Below, in pieces: positions 18,093-23,705 of a stretch of DNA of 35,363 nt. The stretch is taken from positions 1 through 35,363 of the forward strand of contig PLGM01000364.1 in the NCBI GenBank assembly GCA_003139795.1, given 5' to 3'. The notes beneath the pieces are model-generated. The model worked only from the letters and a program-made list of their open reading frames with translations. It had not been told where the DNA came from and made no database searches. Made by a program: the position numbers and the translations under genes. Source of the DNA: Acidobacteriaceae bacterium (GTDB lineage Bacteria; Acidobacteriota; Terriglobia; Terriglobales; Acidobacteriaceae). Position 1 is the stretch's first letter; each line of letters begins with the position of its first letter.

Positions 18093-18581
18093 CTAACGGG
18101 TCCGCGCCAGGGCCACAACCGGTGGCTGGTTCTCATTGCGGTGTTCAAGCTGGCCCAGGCACTGCTATTCATCGCCATCGGCGTGGGAGCGCTGCGCCTG
18201 GTGCACAAGGACATCGGCGATATGCTGGCGCGACTGGCCCACCACCTGCGCTTCAGCCCGGAGTCGCGCTTCGTCGACTTCGTCCTGGGCAGGGCCTCGA
18301 TCGTCAATGACCGGCTGCTGCGCAGGATCAGCGCGGCCGTCTTCTCGTATGCCGCGCTCGGAATGGTGGAGGGAATCGGCCTGTATCTGGAGAAGGCCTG
18401 GGCCGAGTACCTGACGCTGGGAATTACCGCTTCCTTCCTGCCCTGGGAGATCTTCGAGGTAATCCGCAGACATACGCCGATCCGGGCGGGCCTGCTGGTA
18501 GTCAACGCGCTGGTTTTTCTTTACCTGCTGAAGCTGGTGGTAGAGCGCGGGAGACAGGTGCAGAAACCCGAAATTGTGTAA
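18021..18581 (+). CDS. DUF2127 domain-containing membrane protein
   Basis: A 186-residue inner-membrane protein. After a polar N-terminal tail (1-33) come about four hydrophobic segments: WLVLIAVFKLAQALLFIAIG (~35-55), a segment around ISAAVFSYAALGMVEGIGLY, one around YLTLGITASFLPWEIFEVI, and LLVVNALVFLYLLKLVV. The patterns FKLAQALLFIAIGVGALRL, SRFVDFVLGR, EKAWAEYLT, PWEIFEVIRR and TPIRAGLLVVNALVFLYL are characteristic of DUF2127. The function of this family is not established. The start is a GTG at 18021 with AGGAG (18009-18013) 7 nt upstream. It lies between the amidohydrolase-like gene and the long mraZ upstream region and is probably expressed separately from dcw. Confidence 0.82.
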   Translation: MIGRRKAEEIIDSESKSSNPDPGPLTGPRQGHNRWLVLIAVFKLAQALLFIAIGVGALRLVHKDIGDMLARLAHHLRFSPESRFVDFVLGRASIVNDRLLRRISAAVFSYAALGMVEGIGLYLEKAWAEYLTLGITASFLPWEIFEVIRRHTPIRAGLLVVNALVFLYLLKLVVERGRQVQKPEIV

Positions 18582-18809
18582 GCTGCACGGGTGGAATTGG
18601 TCACAGCGCAATCAGGGTTCCCGGCGAGCGATCAGGCGGAAGGCGCCTGTTTTCGCTTTTTGTTCACCTATCATGTCCCGCCGGTCCTGTCCAGTAGTGG
18701 AACCAAAGCGGTAAACACTACATCTTGTGGTGGTCGAAGTTTTTTAGTCTATTAGACGAATTTCCCACACTTACCCTCAAACTCCCCTGCTTCAGCGCGT
18801 TTTTTTTCT

Positions 18810-18837
18810 TTGCGTGGGTCAGAAACGGCTGTAGTAT
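18810..18837 (+). promoter_or_regulatory. probable mraZ (dcw) promoter
   Basis: TTGCGT (18810-18815) and TAGTAT (18832-18837) are separated by 16 nt, immediately upstream of the MraZ repeats. A run of eight T (18801 onward) precedes the -35. The rest of the 510-bp gap 18582-19091 shows no gene; it is a long 5' leader (~240 nt) for mraZ. Confidence 0.45.
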
Positions 18838-18844
18838 CGCTCTT

Positions 18845-18879
18845 GTGGGGCAAAGTGGAGCCAAGTGGTACAAAGTGGG
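18845..18879 (+). promoter_or_regulatory. MraZ operator: four 10-bp direct repeats
   Basis: GTGG(G/A/T) occurs at 18845, 18855, 18865 and 18875, exactly 10 bp apart, with spacers such as GCAAA and GCCAA. Known MraZ-binding regions are 3-4 direct repeats of a GTGGG-type pentamer at 10-bp spacing upstream of mraZ, so this is the autoregulatory site. It lies just downstream of the predicted -10, which suits repression of transcription start or escape. Confidence 0.82.
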
Positions 18880-19091
18880 ATCAGGAGAAGTTCAGCAAAA
18901 TCCAAGTCCACCAGAGCCGCTGAACCGATCCGAAGCAATTCTACTCCCATTTCAATCTCTCCACGGGGCTTCCGGGGCGCCAAAAACGGCCGGGGAATCA
19001 GCCTGGCTAACGGGGACAGGGAAGTTCAGGGCAGGGAACCAGCCGTGGCACGAGATCTGGAATCAGCCGCGGGCAGGCAAGGGGCAAGACG

Positions 19092-19541
19092 GTGTTTCGC
19101 GGAAACCATCCGGCGAAGGTCGATGAGAAGGGGAGACTGAAGGTCCCGTCTGCGTTCAAGCAGTTGCTGGATGCGGCCAACGTCACCCAGTTCTACATCA
19201 CCTCGACGGATGGAAAGAGCGCCCAGGTGTGGCCGTTGCCGGAGTGGGAGAGGCAGGAAAAGCTGCTGGCGGACTACAGCACCATGGACGACGCGGTGGA
19301 AAAGTACCTGAACCTGACCAGCTACTACGGCCAGCAAGTGGAGATTGACAGCCAGGCGCGGGTGTTGCTGCCCCAGATTCTGCGCGAAAAGGCCAGGCTG
19401 AACGCAGAAGTTTCGGTATTCGGGAAGCTGATCTATCTGGAAGTTCAAAACGAGCAGGAATTCGAACAGCGTTTGCCGGCCTTCGAAATGACGCCGGAGG
19501 AGCGCAAGTCGGTGGCGGCGATTACCCGCCGGAATGGTTGA
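19092..19541 (+). CDS. mraZ: transcriptional regulator MraZ
   Basis: A 149-residue DNA-binding protein, the conserved first gene of dcw clusters, which forms a ring oligomer and regulates its own operon. It has two SpoVT/AbrB-like swapped-hairpin domains, each with the DxxxR mark: KVDEKGRLKVP (about residues 9-19) and EIDSQARVLLP (about 86-96). Length is normal. The start is a GTG at 19092, giving the standard N-terminus MFRGNHPAKVDEKG; an AGGGGC-like site lies upstream. The stop TGA (19539-19541) is 26 nt before rsmH. The matching repeat operator is at 18845-18879. Confidence 0.93.
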   Translation: MFRGNHPAKVDEKGRLKVPSAFKQLLDAANVTQFYITSTDGKSAQVWPLPEWERQEKLLADYSTMDDAVEKYLNLTSYYGQQVEIDSQARVLLPQILREKARLNAEVSVFGKLIYLEVQNEQEFEQRLPAFEMTPEERKSVAAITRRNG

Positions 19542-19567
19542 ACCGCAAGACCCCCCAGGGGGAGCGC

Positions 19568-20479
19568 ATGACGAAGCCGACTGAACGCCATGTGCCAGTT
19601 CTTTTCGAAGAAGCGATTGGTTTTCTCAGGGTGCGCGCAGGCGGAACGTATGTGGACTGCACGCTGGGGTTGGCAGGGCACGCCGCGGAGATAGTGAGGC
19701 TGCTGGGGCCTGCGGGTCGCCTGATCGGATTTGACCGGGACCCCGAGGCGTTCGCTCTTGCCAAGGCCAGGCTGGACCGGGTTTGCGAAGAGCTGGGCAG
19801 CCAGGCGCCGCAAGCGACGCTGGTGGGCGAGGCCTTCAGTTCCATTGAGCAGCACGTAAAGCCGGCATCGGTGGATGGTTTGCTGGCCGACTTTGGGGTC
19901 AGCAGCCTGCAGTTCGACGAGGCGCACAGGGGATTCAGTTTTCAGGCGGATGGGCCGCTGGATATGCGCATGGATACGCGCTCCGGGCCAACCGCCGCAC
20001 AGGTGGTAAACGAGGCGAGCGAGCGCGAGCTGGCAAACCTCATTTACGAATACGGAGAGGATAGGAGGTCGCGGAGAATCGCCAGAGCCATTGTTCGCGG
20101 GCGGCCGTTGACGACGACCGGGGAACTTGCCCGAATCGTCGCCGCAACCGCCCCGACAATGAAAAGCGAGCGCATTCATCCGGCGACCAGAACCTTTCAA
20201 GCTCTCCGTATCTACGTAAATCGCGAGCTGGACGAGATTCGGGCGTTGCTGGAGGCCGCACCCAGGTTGCTCAAGCCCTCCGCAAGGCTGGCCGTCATCA
20301 GCTTTCATTCGCTGGAAGATCGGATCGCAAAGGACAGTCTGCGGGAAGGCGCGCAGAAGGGAATCTGGGAGATTCTGACCAGGAAGCCGGTCACGGCCGG
20401 CGAAGAAGAGATGGAGCGCAACCCCCGTTCGCGGAGCGCGAAGCTGAGGGCGGCGGAGAGGACAGCTTCTCGCTTCTAG
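19568..20479 (+). CDS. rsmH: 16S rRNA (cytosine(1402)-N(4))-methyltransferase RsmH
   Basis: A 303-residue SAM-dependent methyltransferase that modifies C1402 in the ribosomal P site (old name mraW). Family marks are RHVPVLFEEAI, the SAM loop YVDCTLGLAGHA (residues ~28-39), DGLLADFGVSSLQFD, RGFSF, HPATRTFQALRIYVNRELDE and VISFHSLEDRIAK, with the C-terminal NPRSRSAKLRAAER. The frame extends to a TTG at 19538, but the ATG at 19568 has a strong AGGGGGAG just upstream and gives the normal N-terminus. The last four codons and the stop TAG are made of 7-bp repeat units of the downstream element, so the extreme C-terminus (TASRF) is repeat-encoded. Confidence 0.93.
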   Translation: MTKPTERHVPVLFEEAIGFLRVRAGGTYVDCTLGLAGHAAEIVRLLGPAGRLIGFDRDPEAFALAKARLDRVCEELGSQAPQATLVGEAFSSIEQHVKPASVDGLLADFGVSSLQFDEAHRGFSFQADGPLDMRMDTRSGPTAAQVVNEASERELANLIYEYGEDRRSRRIARAIVRGRPLTTTGELARIVAATAPTMKSERIHPATRTFQALRIYVNRELDEIRALLEAAPRLLKPSARLAVISFHSLEDRIAKDSLREGAQKGIWEILTRKPVTAGEEEMERNPRSRSAKLRAAERTASRF

Positions 20480-20626
20480 CTACTAGCTTTGAAGCGGGGT
20501 GACGAGGTTTTTGGCGAACGGCTGGCAGTTAAATCGGGAAGGTGAAAAGAGCAAGCTTCAGGCGGGCTGAGCTAGAAGCTAGTAGCTAGAAGCTAGAAGC
20601 TAGAAGCTAGAAGCTAGAAGCTAGCA
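20465..20626. repeat. heptad-repeat hairpin element I (rsmH-ftsL)
   Basis: Left arm: units GCTTCTC, GCTTCTA, GCTACTA, GCTTTGA (20465-20492). Right arm: eight units at 20571-20626, GCTAGAA six times plus GCTAGTA and GCTAGCA. The right-arm unit is the reverse complement, in rotated phase, of the left-arm unit; for instance 20474-20488 is the exact reverse complement of 20577-20591 (15 bp). The core between arms is 78 nt (20493-20570). The left arm overlaps the 3' end of rsmH. The right arm ends 4 nt before the ftsL ribosome-binding GGGAGG. Confidence 0.85.
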
Positions 20627-20642
20627 GCTCGGGAGGTTAACC

Positions 20643-21149
20643 ATGGCGGCATGCGCGACAACATATTTTGAAGCCGGCCGCGGGCTGGGCGCTCGGGACC
20701 GGGAGCGGAACGCGGAGCTGATGGCTCAGCAGCCACGGCGCAGGCGGGGCGTGCGCACGCCGGAGTTCTACTTTGCCAGGCACTTTGACAATTCGCGGCT
20801 GGTGAAGGCGCCGGACCCGGTGCGGGTGCGCGAGATGCGCGTGTTTACCGCGGCGATCGCGGTGCTGTTCACGCTGGTGATGATCTATGGCTTGCAGCAC
20901 TTCTATGCCATCGAGGGCGGTTACCGTGTGGAGTCGGAGAAGCAGGCGGTGGACCAATTGCGCGAAGAGAACCGCCAGTTGCGGCTGACCGAGGCACAGC
21001 TTACGCAGCCGGGCCGGATCGACCAAATGGCCCGCCAACTGGGTCTTGCGGAACCGCAGCCGGGCCAGGTGATTCATCCCAGTGCCCGTCCCGACGCCGC
21101 GACTCCAGCCATTGCCCAGGTGACACCGCCGGCGCAGGCCGCGCAATAG
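20643..21149 (+). CDS. ftsL: cell division protein FtsL-like
   Basis: A 168-residue bitopic membrane protein in the position of ftsL. A basic cytoplasmic N-terminus (1-66, with RRRR near 32-35) is followed by one membrane span (about 67-89, VFTAAIAVLFTLVMIYGL), a leucine-zipper-like periplasmic coiled coil (about 95-122, QLREENRQLRLTEAQL) and the typical IDQMARQLGLAEPQPGQVI segment. In other bacteria FtsL with FtsB and FtsQ activates FtsW-FtsI at the septum. Sequence conservation is always weak in this family, so the call rests on topology, the RIDQxARQLGL motif and location. The Pro/Ala-rich C-terminus is longer than usual. The start at 20643 has GGGAGG with a 6-nt spacer. The gene is flanked on both sides by heptad-repeat elements. 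Confidence 0.82.
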   Translation: MAACATTYFEAGRGLGARDRERNAELMAQQPRRRRGVRTPEFYFARHFDNSRLVKAPDPVRVREMRVFTAAIAVLFTLVMIYGLQHFYAIEGGYRVESEKQAVDQLREENRQLRLTEAQLTQPGRIDQMARQLGLAEPQPGQVIHPSARPDAATPAIAQVTPPAQAAQ

Positions 21150-21160
21150 GCAGAAGGACG

Positions 21161-21350
21161 GCTGCCAGCCGCCAGCTTCCAGCTATCAGCTTTGTAGCGC
21201 GAGCAATGAGAGTCAGGGCTCCCATCGGCAGTTTTATAAGTCAGGACAGAAGGCGATTAGCAAGCTGGATGCGGCTGGGAGTTAGGAGTTAGGAGCCAGA
21301 AGTTATGAGTTAGAAGTTATAAGCTGGAAGCTAGCATCTAGCATCCAGCA
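21161..21350. repeat. heptad-repeat hairpin element II (ftsL-ftsI)
   Basis: Left arm: GCTGCCA, GCCGCCA, GCTTCCA, GCTATCA, GCTTTGT (21161-21195). Right arm: eleven degenerate 7-bp units from 21274 to 21350, including GTTAGGA twice, GTTAGAA, GCTGGAA and GCTAGCA. The core is 78 nt (21196-21273), the same length as in element I, and carries GGCAGTT at the same core position (32-38). The element begins 12 nt after the ftsL stop and ends 40 nt before ftsI. Confidence 0.8.
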
Positions 21351-21389
21351 AGTGGACGCGGAGCAATTCAAGTCTCGGAGCAATTCCCC

Positions 21390-23705
21390 ATGCAGGCAGC
21401 CCTTCAAGCCAACCGGAACCGCACCAAGGCGGCGCGGGCCATCCCTCCTCTGAAGCGGGCGCGCTTCTGGCTGATCTGCCTGTTCTTTCTGGTGTGGGCG
21501 GTGGCGATTGGCGGCCGCCTGTTCTGGCTGCAGGTGGTGCGCCACCAGGAGTTCGTGGAGCGCGCCCAAAGGCAGCAGCAGCGAACTTTTGAGGTAGCTC
21601 CCCGCCGCGGCGTGCTCTACGACCGCAACCTGCACGAGCTGGCCATGACGGTGCAGGCGGACTCCTTCTACGCCGTGCCCACCGAGATCGACGACAAGCA
21701 GACGGCGGCGCACGCGCTGGCCGCGCTGGTGCACACCGACCCCGACGATGCACTGACCACCGAGGAGCAGATTGCCGAACGGCTGGCCAACGGTCATGCC
21801 TTTGCGTGGGTGGCACGGAGGGTCACGTCCGAGGTTGCCTCGCGCGTCAAGGGGCTTCCGATCAAGGGAATCTACTCCCAGAAGGAGTTTCAGCGCTTTT
21901 ATCCGGACAACGAGATCGCGGCGCAGGTGCTGGGCTATGTGGGCGCGGACGATAACGGGCTGGGCGGCCTGGAGCAGAAATACGAGCCGCAATTGCACGG
22001 CGCTCCGGGCCGCATGTACACGGCCATGGATGCGCGGCGCAAGGTATTGGGATCCAGCGAGGCCGAGCCGGAGCCGGGCCAGAACCTGGTGCTGACCGTC
22101 GACGAGAACATCCAGTTCCTGGCCGAGCGGGCGCTGGACCACGCCATGGAGCGGACCCAGGCGGCCAACGGCACGGTGGTGGTGCAGGACGTGCATACGG
22201 GCCAGATTCTGGCGTTGGCCATCCGCCCCACGTTCAATCCCAACCTGGCCCGCAAGACCACGCCGGGGCTGTTGCGCAACCACGCCGTGAGCGACGTCTA
22301 CGAGCCGGGTTCGGTGTTCAAGCTGGTCACCTATTCGGCGGCGCTGGAGCAGAAGGTTGCTTCGCCGGACGACAAGATCGACTGCCAGGGCGGGCAGATC
22401 ACGCTGGCCGGGCGCGTGATCCACGACGATAAGTCGGACCACTATGGGGTCATCACGGTGCATGAGGCGCTGGAGCATTCGAGCGACGTGGCCGCCGTCA
22501 AACTGGCGCTGAAAGTCGGCCCGGAGCACTTTTACCAATTCATACGCGATTTCGGCTTTGGCAGCCGCACCGGCACGGAACTGCCCGGCGAGACGCGCGG
22601 TCTGCTGCAGCCGGTAAAGAAGTGGGGTGCAACGTCGATCGGGTCGATTGCCATCGGGCAGGAGGTAGGCGTGACGCCGCTGCAACTTGTGTCGATGGTT
22701 TCCACCATCGCCAACGGAGGCATTTACCTGCCGCCGCACGTGCTGATGCCGGGCCAGGTGGGCGCCGGCGCCAACGGCCAGCACGGAGCAAGCCCGTTGC
22801 AACCGGAGCCGTTCAAGCCGGGCGGCGATTTGCCCAATCCGCTGCCGGCGGGCGCGCACCGCGTTCTCTCCACGCTGACCGCGGCCGAGATGCGCAAGAT
22901 GATGGAGGGCGTGGTGCTCTACGGCACCGGCAGGCAGGCGCAGCTCAACGGCTACTCCTCGGGCGGCAAGACCGGCACCGCGCAGAAGATCGATCCGGTC
23001 ACGCGCACCTACTCGAAGACCATGCACGTGGCCTCGTTTGCCGGCATCGCGCCGGTGAACAATCCGGTTATCGCGGTGGCCGTGGTGATGGACAACCCCA
23101 AGGGAGCCTACTACGGCGCCAGCGTCTCGGCGCCGGTGTTTGCCGAGGTGGCGCAGCAGGTGCTTGAGTATCTGGGCGTGCCGCACGATATCGAAGTCCA
23201 CGCGCCGCGCGTCAAGTCCCAGGCCGATGCGCTGGTTGCGGAAGACGACGCGCACGCGCAGGGCGAGGACATCAATACTCTGTTTGCCGCGATCAACGAT
23301 CTGCCCAGCGACGATCCGTTGCGCGCGGGGTCAGACCAGGCTGGGAGCGCAGGCCAGGCGGCCACGCAGCCCGCGCAGCAATCTCAGGCGCAGGCCACCG
23401 GTCTGGCCGCGGACGCCAAAGCCAGTCAGGGCGGCGCGCAGGCCGTTTCCGCGGCGGCGCAACCCTCCCCGCAGCCGGCAAAGGCCTTCGAGCAAAAGAC
23501 ATCGCTGGCGGTCATGGTTCCCGATGCCAGGCAACTGCGCGTTCCTACGCTGGTCGGACTGCCGCTGCGCAAGGTCATCGAGCAGGCAGCCGCGGCGGGC
23601 CTTGAGGTGCGCATCGCCGGCAACGGCACAGTGCGGGAACAGGCTCCCGCCGCGGGCACGATGGTTGCGTCCGGAACGCAGATCGTGGTGCGCTGCGGGC
23701 GGTGA
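21390..23705 (+). CDS. ftsI: penicillin-binding protein 3 / FtsI transpeptidase with PASTA domain
   Basis: A 771-residue septal peptidoglycan D,D-transpeptidase (class B PBP). Short cytoplasmic tail, one membrane anchor (~25-45), PBP dimerisation domain (~70-220), transpeptidase domain (~230-595), Ala/Gln-rich linker (~640-700) and a single C-terminal PASTA domain (~710-770). Active-site motifs: SVFK with nucleophile S308 (in YEPGSVFKLV), SSD at 364-366 in place of the usual S-x-N, and KTG at 527-529 (GGKTGTAQK). The Asp in the second motif is unusual but occurs in a conserved setting (HSSDVAAVKLA). The ATG at 21390 follows GGAG with a 9-nt spacer. The last ~113 bp of the gene are duplicated 1158 bp downstream, flanking a toxin-antitoxin-like pair. 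Confidence 0.92.
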   Translation: MQAALQANRNRTKAARAIPPLKRARFWLICLFFLVWAVAIGGRLFWLQVVRHQEFVERAQRQQQRTFEVAPRRGVLYDRNLHELAMTVQADSFYAVPTEIDDKQTAAHALAALVHTDPDDALTTEEQIAERLANGHAFAWVARRVTSEVASRVKGLPIKGIYSQKEFQRFYPDNEIAAQVLGYVGADDNGLGGLEQKYEPQLHGAPGRMYTAMDARRKVLGSSEAEPEPGQNLVLTVDENIQFLAERALDHAMERTQAANGTVVVQDVHTGQILALAIRPTFNPNLARKTTPGLLRNHAVSDVYEPGSVFKLVTYSAALEQKVASPDDKIDCQGGQITLAGRVIHDDKSDHYGVITVHEALEHSSDVAAVKLALKVGPEHFYQFIRDFGFGSRTGTELPGETRGLLQPVKKWGATSIGSIAIGQEVGVTPLQLVSMVSTIANGGIYLPPHVLMPGQVGAGANGQHGASPLQPEPFKPGGDLPNPLPAGAHRVLSTLTAAEMRKMMEGVVLYGTGRQAQLNGYSSGGKTGTAQKIDPVTRTYSKTMHVASFAGIAPVNNPVIAVAVVMDNPKGAYYGASVSAPVFAEVAQQVLEYLGVPHDIEVHAPRVKSQADALVAEDDAHAQGEDINTLFAAINDLPSDDPLRAGSDQAGSAGQAATQPAQQSQAQATGLAADAKASQGGAQAVSAAAQPSPQPAKAFEQKTSLAVMVPDARQLRVPTLVGLPLRKVIEQAAAAGLEVRIAGNGTVREQAPAAGTMVASGTQIVVRCGR

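Follow-up and report, generated by a model that had tools for sequence, protein, structure and literature searches.

The window analysed here is a 35,363-nt stretch of DNA from an Acidobacteriaceae bacterium (GCA_003139795.1, contig PLGM01000364.1), and this work concerns two elements in it, I and II, that are built of tandem 7-nt units (heptads) and lie on either side of an ftsL-like gene. Pfam searches with the window proteins showed that the rsmH-ftsL-ftsI segment of the dcw cluster is present. rsmH (mraW; 19538..20479, + strand) matched Methyltransf_5 (E 7.6e-98). The ftsL-like gene (20643..21149, + strand) was assigned by its position between rsmH and ftsI and by two DivIC/FtsL matches of its FtsL/DivIC-like protein that fell short of the curated cut-off (E 1.6e-4 and 4e-4). 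Its downstream neighbour (21390..23705, + strand) encodes an ftsI-like penicillin-binding protein (PBP) transpeptidase with a PASTA domain.

Architecture and cores of elements I and II

Element I occupies the rsmH-ftsL gap. Its left array (20465..20492, + strand) consists of four units, GCTTCTC GCTTCTA GCTACTA GCTTTGA, which are of the YAG type (Y, pyrimidine) in the sense strand, and it is followed by a 78-nt core (20493..20570, no strand) and a right array of eight GCTAGAA-type units (20571..20626, + strand), directly after which lies the GGGAGG ribosome-binding site of ftsL. The stop codon of rsmH, TAG (20477-20479), falls inside the left array, the array itself supplying the stop. In several relatives the first heptad is likewise formed by the end of rsmH, CAGTAA or CAGTGA (compare 20465-20479 of the window). 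Element II occupies the ftsL-ftsI gap with a left array of five units, GGCTGCC AGCCGCC AGCTTCC AGCTATC AGCTTTG (21160..21194, + strand), a 77-nt core (21196..21272, no strand) and a right array of 11 degenerate units (21273..21349, + strand). The inner left border, AGCTTTGWAGCG, is common to both elements.

The arrays were delineated from the sequence and with a period-7 detector that is independent of the unit, and the cores by re-measurement. The detector found five arrays in the 35-kb window, including two inverted pairs that were exactly elements I and II, and zero arrays in one Markov shuffle of the window. Both elements thus combine tandem 7-nt units in intergenic DNA with two convergent arrays close together. 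The sequence-only reading of this DNA had described the same convergent architecture in both ftsL gaps, with 4 and 8 units in element I and 5 and 11 in element II, and was confirmed on these points; the core length of 78 nt that it gave for both held for element I, and for element II only if the single base 21195 is counted. Re-measurement also reproduced the AGCG start and the GGCAGTT at position 32 of both cores. An Rfam search of 18500-23000 gave four matches at E 1.7-7, all far below the gathering scores.

The two elements had been taken for diverged copies of one another. The score of the local alignment between their cores was reached by 72 of 3000 shuffles, and comparison of I with II across eight ortholog pairs gave z values of 1.5-5.9, where 99% of the values among 28 other genomic cores were <3.85. 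A test for a co-linear block was not significant (737/5000 shuffles; 8/132 unrelated core pairs). Taken together, these results point only weakly to descent of I and II from one element.

A conserved core had also been proposed, and this part of the proposal was not supported. The 28 genomic cores were mostly unrelated, with 4 of 756 comparisons at z >5. DNA searches at E<=0.01 were carried out with three cores (I, II and one from contig C74 of the same genome, described below) in 59 genus genomes, including the own genome. Core I returned itself as the sole match, core II had no other full-length match and one 24-nt partial match in another genome, and the C74 core returned itself and short stretches in two other genomes, without a full-length copy. 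These searches exclude near copies only, since they also failed to return the diverged cores of orthologous elements that alignments do show (core I: L057; core II: L056, L059 and L061). The core was rejected as the conserved part on these two grounds. Miniature inverted-repeat transposable elements (MITEs) have target-site duplications and a conserved internal sequence, and the internal sequence was not conserved here. REPINs, doublets of repetitive extragenic palindromes (REPs), occur in many copies that include the spacer; a second full-length copy of the three host cores was not found, near copies being all that could be detected, and cores recurred at a few phage junctions only.

Dispersal, polarity and placement at gene boundaries

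We investigated the spread of heptad arrays in fetched genome stretches and by pattern searches. In the own genome (G000), a three-unit pattern with up to 3 mismatches matched at 31 + 31 places on 17 contigs, and the control gave 1 match. The stretches in which both arms were found had the order left array, core, right array. Contig C74 (L009 1496-19032) contained, within 20 kb around a ribosomal-protein operon, 11 paired elements from several unit families; the genes among which they lie include those for ribosomal proteins L2, S3, L24, L5, L18, S11 and S4 and RNA polymerase alpha (10 proteins scanned, 9 matched). The RNA polymerase alpha gene (L009 1615-2716, minus strand) appears as two overlapping frames, an N-terminal part and a C-terminal domain, perhaps through an assembly frameshift. 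Paired heptad elements are not special to ftsL, and the search that had been suggested, of the host and its relatives for a core flanked by 7-bp arrays, found paired arrays dispersed but the core itself not conserved.

Within the family, 140 of 200 genomes had at least one AGCTNNT array and many genomes had none; in a phylum-wide draw such an array was present in 50 of 297 genomes. AGCTGAT arrays were also seen repeatedly in another genus (G348, G380, G425, G469 and others), which belongs to a distant family of the phylum. The named relatives found through FtsL were metagenome-assembled genomes (MAGs) from peat, soil and similar sources. Two of the FtsL matches (G230:C36:13385-13882 and G241:C223:2094-2591) contained an internal TAA, the alignment possibly running past the gene end. 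The G000 match stretches were selected for AGCTTCT-type arrays, and part of the G000 sample came from contigs that also hold matches; the near-unbiased samples are the 1.25-Mb polarity count in seven genomes and the broad placement count of 23 elements only.

In the 1.25 Mb of the seven genomes, YAG arrays had an inverted partner on the right in 15 cases and on the left in 1, and arrays of the inverse type, CTR (R, purine), had it on the left in 14 and on the right in 0. A single polarity was therefore seen in 29 of 30 partnered typed arrays, the exception being element II's own right array with its degenerate units. A partner was lacking in 12 and 9 typed arrays and present in 6 of the 44 untyped ones. 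Independently detected neighbour arrays within 300 bp (n=60) were inverted in 47 cases, direct in 6 and neither in 7, where random re-pairing expects 15.8 inverted. The 47 inverted cases comprised 37 with YAG then CTR, 6 that fitted this order apart from an undecided arm, 4 whose arms were of the same type and 0 reversed. Over all loci, 61 of 78 elements had YAG on the left and CTR on the right, 0 had the reverse, 5 had both arms of one type and 12 were undecidable; this set still holds duplicate ftsL loci, and the number of distinct elements was 67 in the duplex and fold analysis and 69 in the unit alignment.

Unsupervised phasing of 69 left-arm units recovered a conserved Y-A-G and four looser positions. 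The information summed to 5.77 bits, and none of 20 letter-shuffled sets exceeded 3.20. The duplex, unit-phase, mismatch and arm-match analyses excluded over-long arms and identical elements. A single genome could contain AGCTTCT, CAGTGAT, CAGGGGT and TAGGGAA families, among others; the two arms of an element belonged to the same family. The GCTTCTA-type unit of the window elements has no G-runs; the CAGGGGT and TAGGGAA families found elsewhere do have them. Stop codons in all frames were rejected as a general reason for the YAG tag, because the sense left arms of CAGTTAT and CAGGGGT are free of them. Primase start sites are CTG/CTA, and such sites or a telomerase-like enzyme were only considered as a cause of the polar tag.

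The arrays were tied to gene boundaries, as determined with gene calls by a simple script and with ambiguous AGCT arrays dropped from the orientation tests. In the broad sample, 21 of 23 elements lay between co-directional genes, compared with 338 of 548 for all gaps of 60-500 nt, and 55 of 70 bacterial elements began <=15 nt from a stop codon. Arrays without an inverted partner even at two units were classed as unpaired, and 101 of 139 of these fell into three position classes (38 in none). Those at the stop side only were YAG in 41/41, those at the start side only were CTR in 23/25, and lone arrays filling the whole gap between co-directional genes were YAG in 32/35, a test in which the effective number is smaller because some junctions are homologous. 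Since gap-filling lone arrays are not explicable by pairing or by the nearer edge, their orientation is linked either to the stop codon or to expression direction, and a cause connected with translation or mRNA would agree with it. In the viral CAGTTAT set, whose unit contains no stop codon, the gene stop lay at heptad offset 0 or 3 in 23/39 among the matches listed.

Turnover at orthologous gaps and related arrays in phages

To compare the same gaps in relatives, 14 of 73 ftsL loci were removed as duplicates; L105 and L207 lay outside the tree, and 3 loci with an unresolved first gap were unscored. Gap states were scored with a loose array threshold, at which L062, L077 and L080 counted as having none but show a few heptads by eye. 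Among the 54 loci (window included), the rsmH-ftsL gap was short in 15 (25-66 nt, a few with sub-threshold heptads), longer and without arrays in 8, and contained arrays in 31, which were of AGCT, TAGGGA/CAGGGG, CAGTGAT or mixed types. The ftsL-ftsI gap contained an array in 22 of 57 loci. On a quick tree of the 54 loci (17/54 inner branches well supported), the rsmH-ftsL gap showed 33 state changes and 13 presence changes.

Heptad cassettes turn over rapidly at these orthologous gaps. Element II was present and element I absent in the near relative L056, and the near relative L057 had element I and lacked element II. A CAGGGGT-type element occupied the rsmH-ftsL gap of L058, different unit families occupied it in the sisters L192 and L194, and in L202 a TAGGGAA-type pair lay within the left side of an AGCT element whose core is common to L203 and L204. 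The right array of element I had eight units in the window and about two in L057. Whole cassettes are thus gained, lost and replaced. The insulation of ftsL that the sequence-only reading had suggested is not supported: element I or II is absent from each of the two near relatives L056 and L057, and the mismatches between the arms, described below, show no surplus of the G-U pairs that RNA tolerates.

A scan of viral contigs (IMG/VR) for three CAGTGAT units returned 34 stretches. Phage hallmark genes were found in three of the five stretches whose proteins were tested (terminase and portal in L209; tape measure and tail in L227; Mu-like transposition proteins and endolysin in L213), and proteins of the other two, L215 and L238, matched phage families of unknown function. 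The stretches had been selected for presence of the unit; of their 131 distinct gaps of 55-450 nt, 62 contained a YAG array and then a CTR array, and the polarity held in 126 of 138 typed arrays with a partner; the same architecture is thus carried by phages with other units. The phage evidence concerns related units, since AGCTTCT itself was found in 2 viral stretches only. At many gene junctions of L213, L215, L227, L209 and L238, heptad pairs alternate with GTAGGGGCG...CGCCCCTAC palindromes, and the set contained 76 copies of the GTAGGGGCG motif in 332 kb (near-duplicate contigs included) versus 2-3 in each of three acidobacterial samples. Among the junctions listed, related phages carried differing inserts at orthologous positions, including GTAG-type palindromes.

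Two side observations were made at viral junctions. In L238 and L215, left-arm modules ending in CAGTAAAGGCAAA are tandemly repeated before one right arm, as if the arms were separate modules. Junctions of L210 (13, 14), L216 and L241 contain short-period arrays of AGTTCAA, AACTTCN and CTGAAAN without a clear YAG tag.

Candidate explanations and significance

With moderate confidence, we favour the explanation that the elements are DNA-level repeats of gene junctions, which have their anchor at gene ends, lengthen by slippage and are replaced as whole cassettes, and that they are not a device for the control of ftsL. Elements I and II are two members of a dispersed class of heptad cassettes that settles in short gaps between co-directional genes, each with a stop-side array (YAGNNNN)n in the sense strand, an array (NNNNCTR)n at the ribosome-binding site and a mostly unrelated core between them. 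Arrays would start at gene ends, anchored on the stop-codon heptad, with slippage by 7 nt adding or removing units. At the other edge of the gap, an inverted partner from the same family would arise. Whole cassettes are gained, lost or replaced by another family. Arrays would probably be near-neutral and persist as the space between stop and Shine-Dalgarno sequence tolerates them.

Repeats of this kind are known. The available passages of PMC4692102 describe Xanthomonas GGGAATC heptamers that are mostly intergenic, form 70 and 75 convergent pairs in two species, lie mostly on the coding strand near stops and mostly on the non-coding strand near starts, and vary in unit number between species. 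The 7-nt intergenic units, the convergent pairs and an orientation set by the proximity of a stop or start are all found here as well. The present elements are accordingly a variant of a repeat kind already in print, and the earlier statement that paired inverted arrays had not been described does not hold. As far as those passages go, the Xanthomonas unit has no YAG tag and one family was studied, whereas here several YAG families replace each other at one gap; GGGAATC can form G-quadruplexes, unlike the GCTTCTA-type units of I and II; Nostoc GGGGA(C/T)T heptamers are seldom paired; and phages go unmentioned, whereas here phages carry related arrays.

Heptanucleotide repeats that can form hairpins are known in cyanobacteria too. 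Parts of PMC2670836 and PMC3488679 report short tandemly repeated repetitive (STRR) sequences with 7-bp hairpin-capable units between genes (hupS-hupL and hoxW gaps) and heptamer hairpin repeats in the Nostoc tRNA-Leu intron P6b; they resemble the present elements in unit length, hairpin capacity and, in part, intergenic position, and appear to differ in unit sequence. Neither a polarity nor a rule for gene boundaries is given in those parts. According to passages of PMC4679880, TAACTGA direct repeats occur in Beggiatoaceae, cyanobacteria and Bacteroidetes, with most BOGUAY sets just before start codons, one reverse set after a stop codon in Flexibacter, sets in ribosomal-protein operons, one indirect repeat in BOGUAY and sets more mixed in position in Microcystis, and binding by a translational regulator was proposed. 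TAACTGA is of the CTR type before starts and the reverse Flexibacter set is of the YAG type after a stop, and ribosomal-protein operons are shared too, but the arrays there are lone and the elements here are paired. Tandem heptanucleotide elements are also listed for Geobacter in the part of PMC2700814 consulted. In the literature covered, which includes few subscription journals, we found no description of these elements in Acidobacteriota, nor of family replacement at one gap or of phages with such elements at many junctions.

Several observations weigh against, or limit, the reading as DNA-level junction repeats that grow by slippage. Slippage is a putative step, and unit numbers may be wrong in draft MAG assemblies. 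The reading does not account for the YAG tag, which is not absolute: viral stretches with YAG-type units (CAGTGAT 34, CAGTTAT at least 80, CAGTGAA 8, TAGGGAA 5) stand beside 20 with GAGTGAT, 6 with CGGTGAT and 0 with CAATGAT, and among distinct viral arrays 4/19 of GAGTGAT and 3/6 of CGGTGAT were paired to the right and 1/19 of GAGTGAT to the left. A purely DNA-level process alone does not explain that lone arrays also follow gene direction, a rule with exceptions of its own (3/35 gap-filling lone arrays and 2/25 start-side arrays). In families whose unit contains TAG or TGA, the stop is part of the array, so that its phase is partly forced. The reversed control pattern matched too in the phylum search, often in some genomes (G474: 32 and 52). 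Other viral scans gave mostly lone arrays (CAGTTAT 44/51 unpaired among the matches listed), and the 2 viral stretches with AGCTTCT represent one distinct array, which is unpaired. A 33-nt core identical at two L208 junctions and, reversed, at one L213 junction looks like movement of a whole element.

The arms themselves gave a mixed picture. It also weighs against the favoured explanation that arms fitted their own partner better than other arms, both in comparison with arms of the same genome when all genomes were pooled (0/2000 permutations, chiefly where several families coexist) and among 33 AGCT elements across species (0/1000). Within the G000 AGCT elements, the observed duplex energy was reached by 18/1000 permutations, and in phage contigs with five or more elements the own versus cross arm match differed little in L213 (0.624/0.608) and L223 (0.696/0.693) and more in L227 (0.690/0.609) and L209 (0.598/0.487). 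A fine mirror-order of units between the arms was rejected, and the arms appear not to be exact inverted copies, because of the 18/1000 permutations in G000 and the small effect in two of the four phage contigs. Arm pairing looks like a property of the family more than a base-by-base constraint.

RNA insulators, in which an intergenic mRNA hairpin shields ribosome-binding sites, couples or uncouples translation or protects transcript ends, seem rather unlikely to us, although similar RNA roles were proposed for cyanobacterial STRR hairpins and Beggiatoa TAACTGA repeats in the parts of those reports at hand. The elements do lie between the stop and start of co-directional genes, mostly close to the stop, arrays occur within a ribosomal-protein operon and lone arrays follow gene direction. 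The long hairpins proposed around ftsL also form on paper, with predicted folds of -70.1 (I) and -69.3 (II) kcal/mol. A sense-mRNA hairpin maintained by selection would show more GU-type than AC-type mismatches, yet 124 oriented elements had 238 GU-type versus 286 AC-type (P 0.04 toward AC), which argues against such a hairpin and led us to reject RNA-sense pairing. Our favoured explanation does not account for the AC excess either, which counts against it. A lone array cannot make such a hairpin, closely related species differ in which elements they have, and the element-specific arm match was small in L213 and L223, though larger in L227 and L209.

That the elements are non-autonomous hairpins mobilised by a Y1 (HUH) tyrosine transposase, YAG...CTR corresponding to the REP tag GTAG...CTAC, is quite unlikely. 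REPINs and GTAG REPs are extragenic, hairpin-forming inverted doublets around a spacer with a terminal tag (PMC3116915, PMC3733652, in part); the heptad elements share the inverted doublet and a tag of the same polarity, with TAG at the outer left and CTA at the outer right. REPINs, as described there, are not built of tandem heptads, have doublet and spacer as the replicating unit and are linked to REP-associated tyrosine transposases (RAYTs), a link not clearly seen here. Y1_Tnp was above the cut-off in 177 of 200 family genomes, and its counts correlated weakly with those of AGCTNNT arrays (rho 0.31, P 0.004; 83 genomes of ~99% completeness or more, ancestry uncorrected), but 5 of the 83 had no Y1_Tnp match yet 2-14 array matches, and paired arrays flanked 0/10 Y1_Tnp loci (L172 with two unpaired arrays). 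Y1_Tnp/RAYT was rejected as the agent, being nearly universal in the family, not flanking arrays and weakly correlated. Some phage cores recur at non-orthologous junctions and the CAGTGAT phage set is rich in the GTAGGGGCG motif, as this explanation would have it, whereas near copies of the three host cores were not found in the 59 genus genomes, and the passages of PMC3733652 report no obvious correlation of such transposase genes with REP or TIR (terminal inverted repeat) families. Protein-binding arrays, in which YAG would be contacted by, for example, a post-transcriptional regulator of the kind suggested for TAACTGA (S1, Csp or CsrA), would suit the fixed YAG with four freer positions, the boundary-specific orientation and the several families per genome, but are very improbable, as units differ between species at the same gap and the flanking genes (ribosomal, division) are functionally unrelated.

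Heptamer repeats have been seen before in a number of unrelated bacteria, and a separate role was proposed in each case. The same architecture in Acidobacteriota, the swapping of families at one orthologous gap and the dense related units in phages suggest one general process. In its specific form the idea is unlikely: one process in bacteria of several phyla and their phages would lay polar heptads and tell stop from start, with YAG in the sense strand after stops, its inverse before starts and an exchangeable four-letter remainder that gives interchangeable families. If true, repeat growth would be coupled to translation or to mRNA-directed DNA synthesis and not to replication alone. That lone arrays run with the gene whose stop codon they adjoin makes a general process testable. 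The tie to gene direction is the part most deserving follow-up, and the lack of a GU excess leaves the riddle of gene-directed orientation standing. If the arrays are a by-product of translation or transcription, they would represent a mutational force that shapes the gaps of operons, including those of ribosomal proteins.

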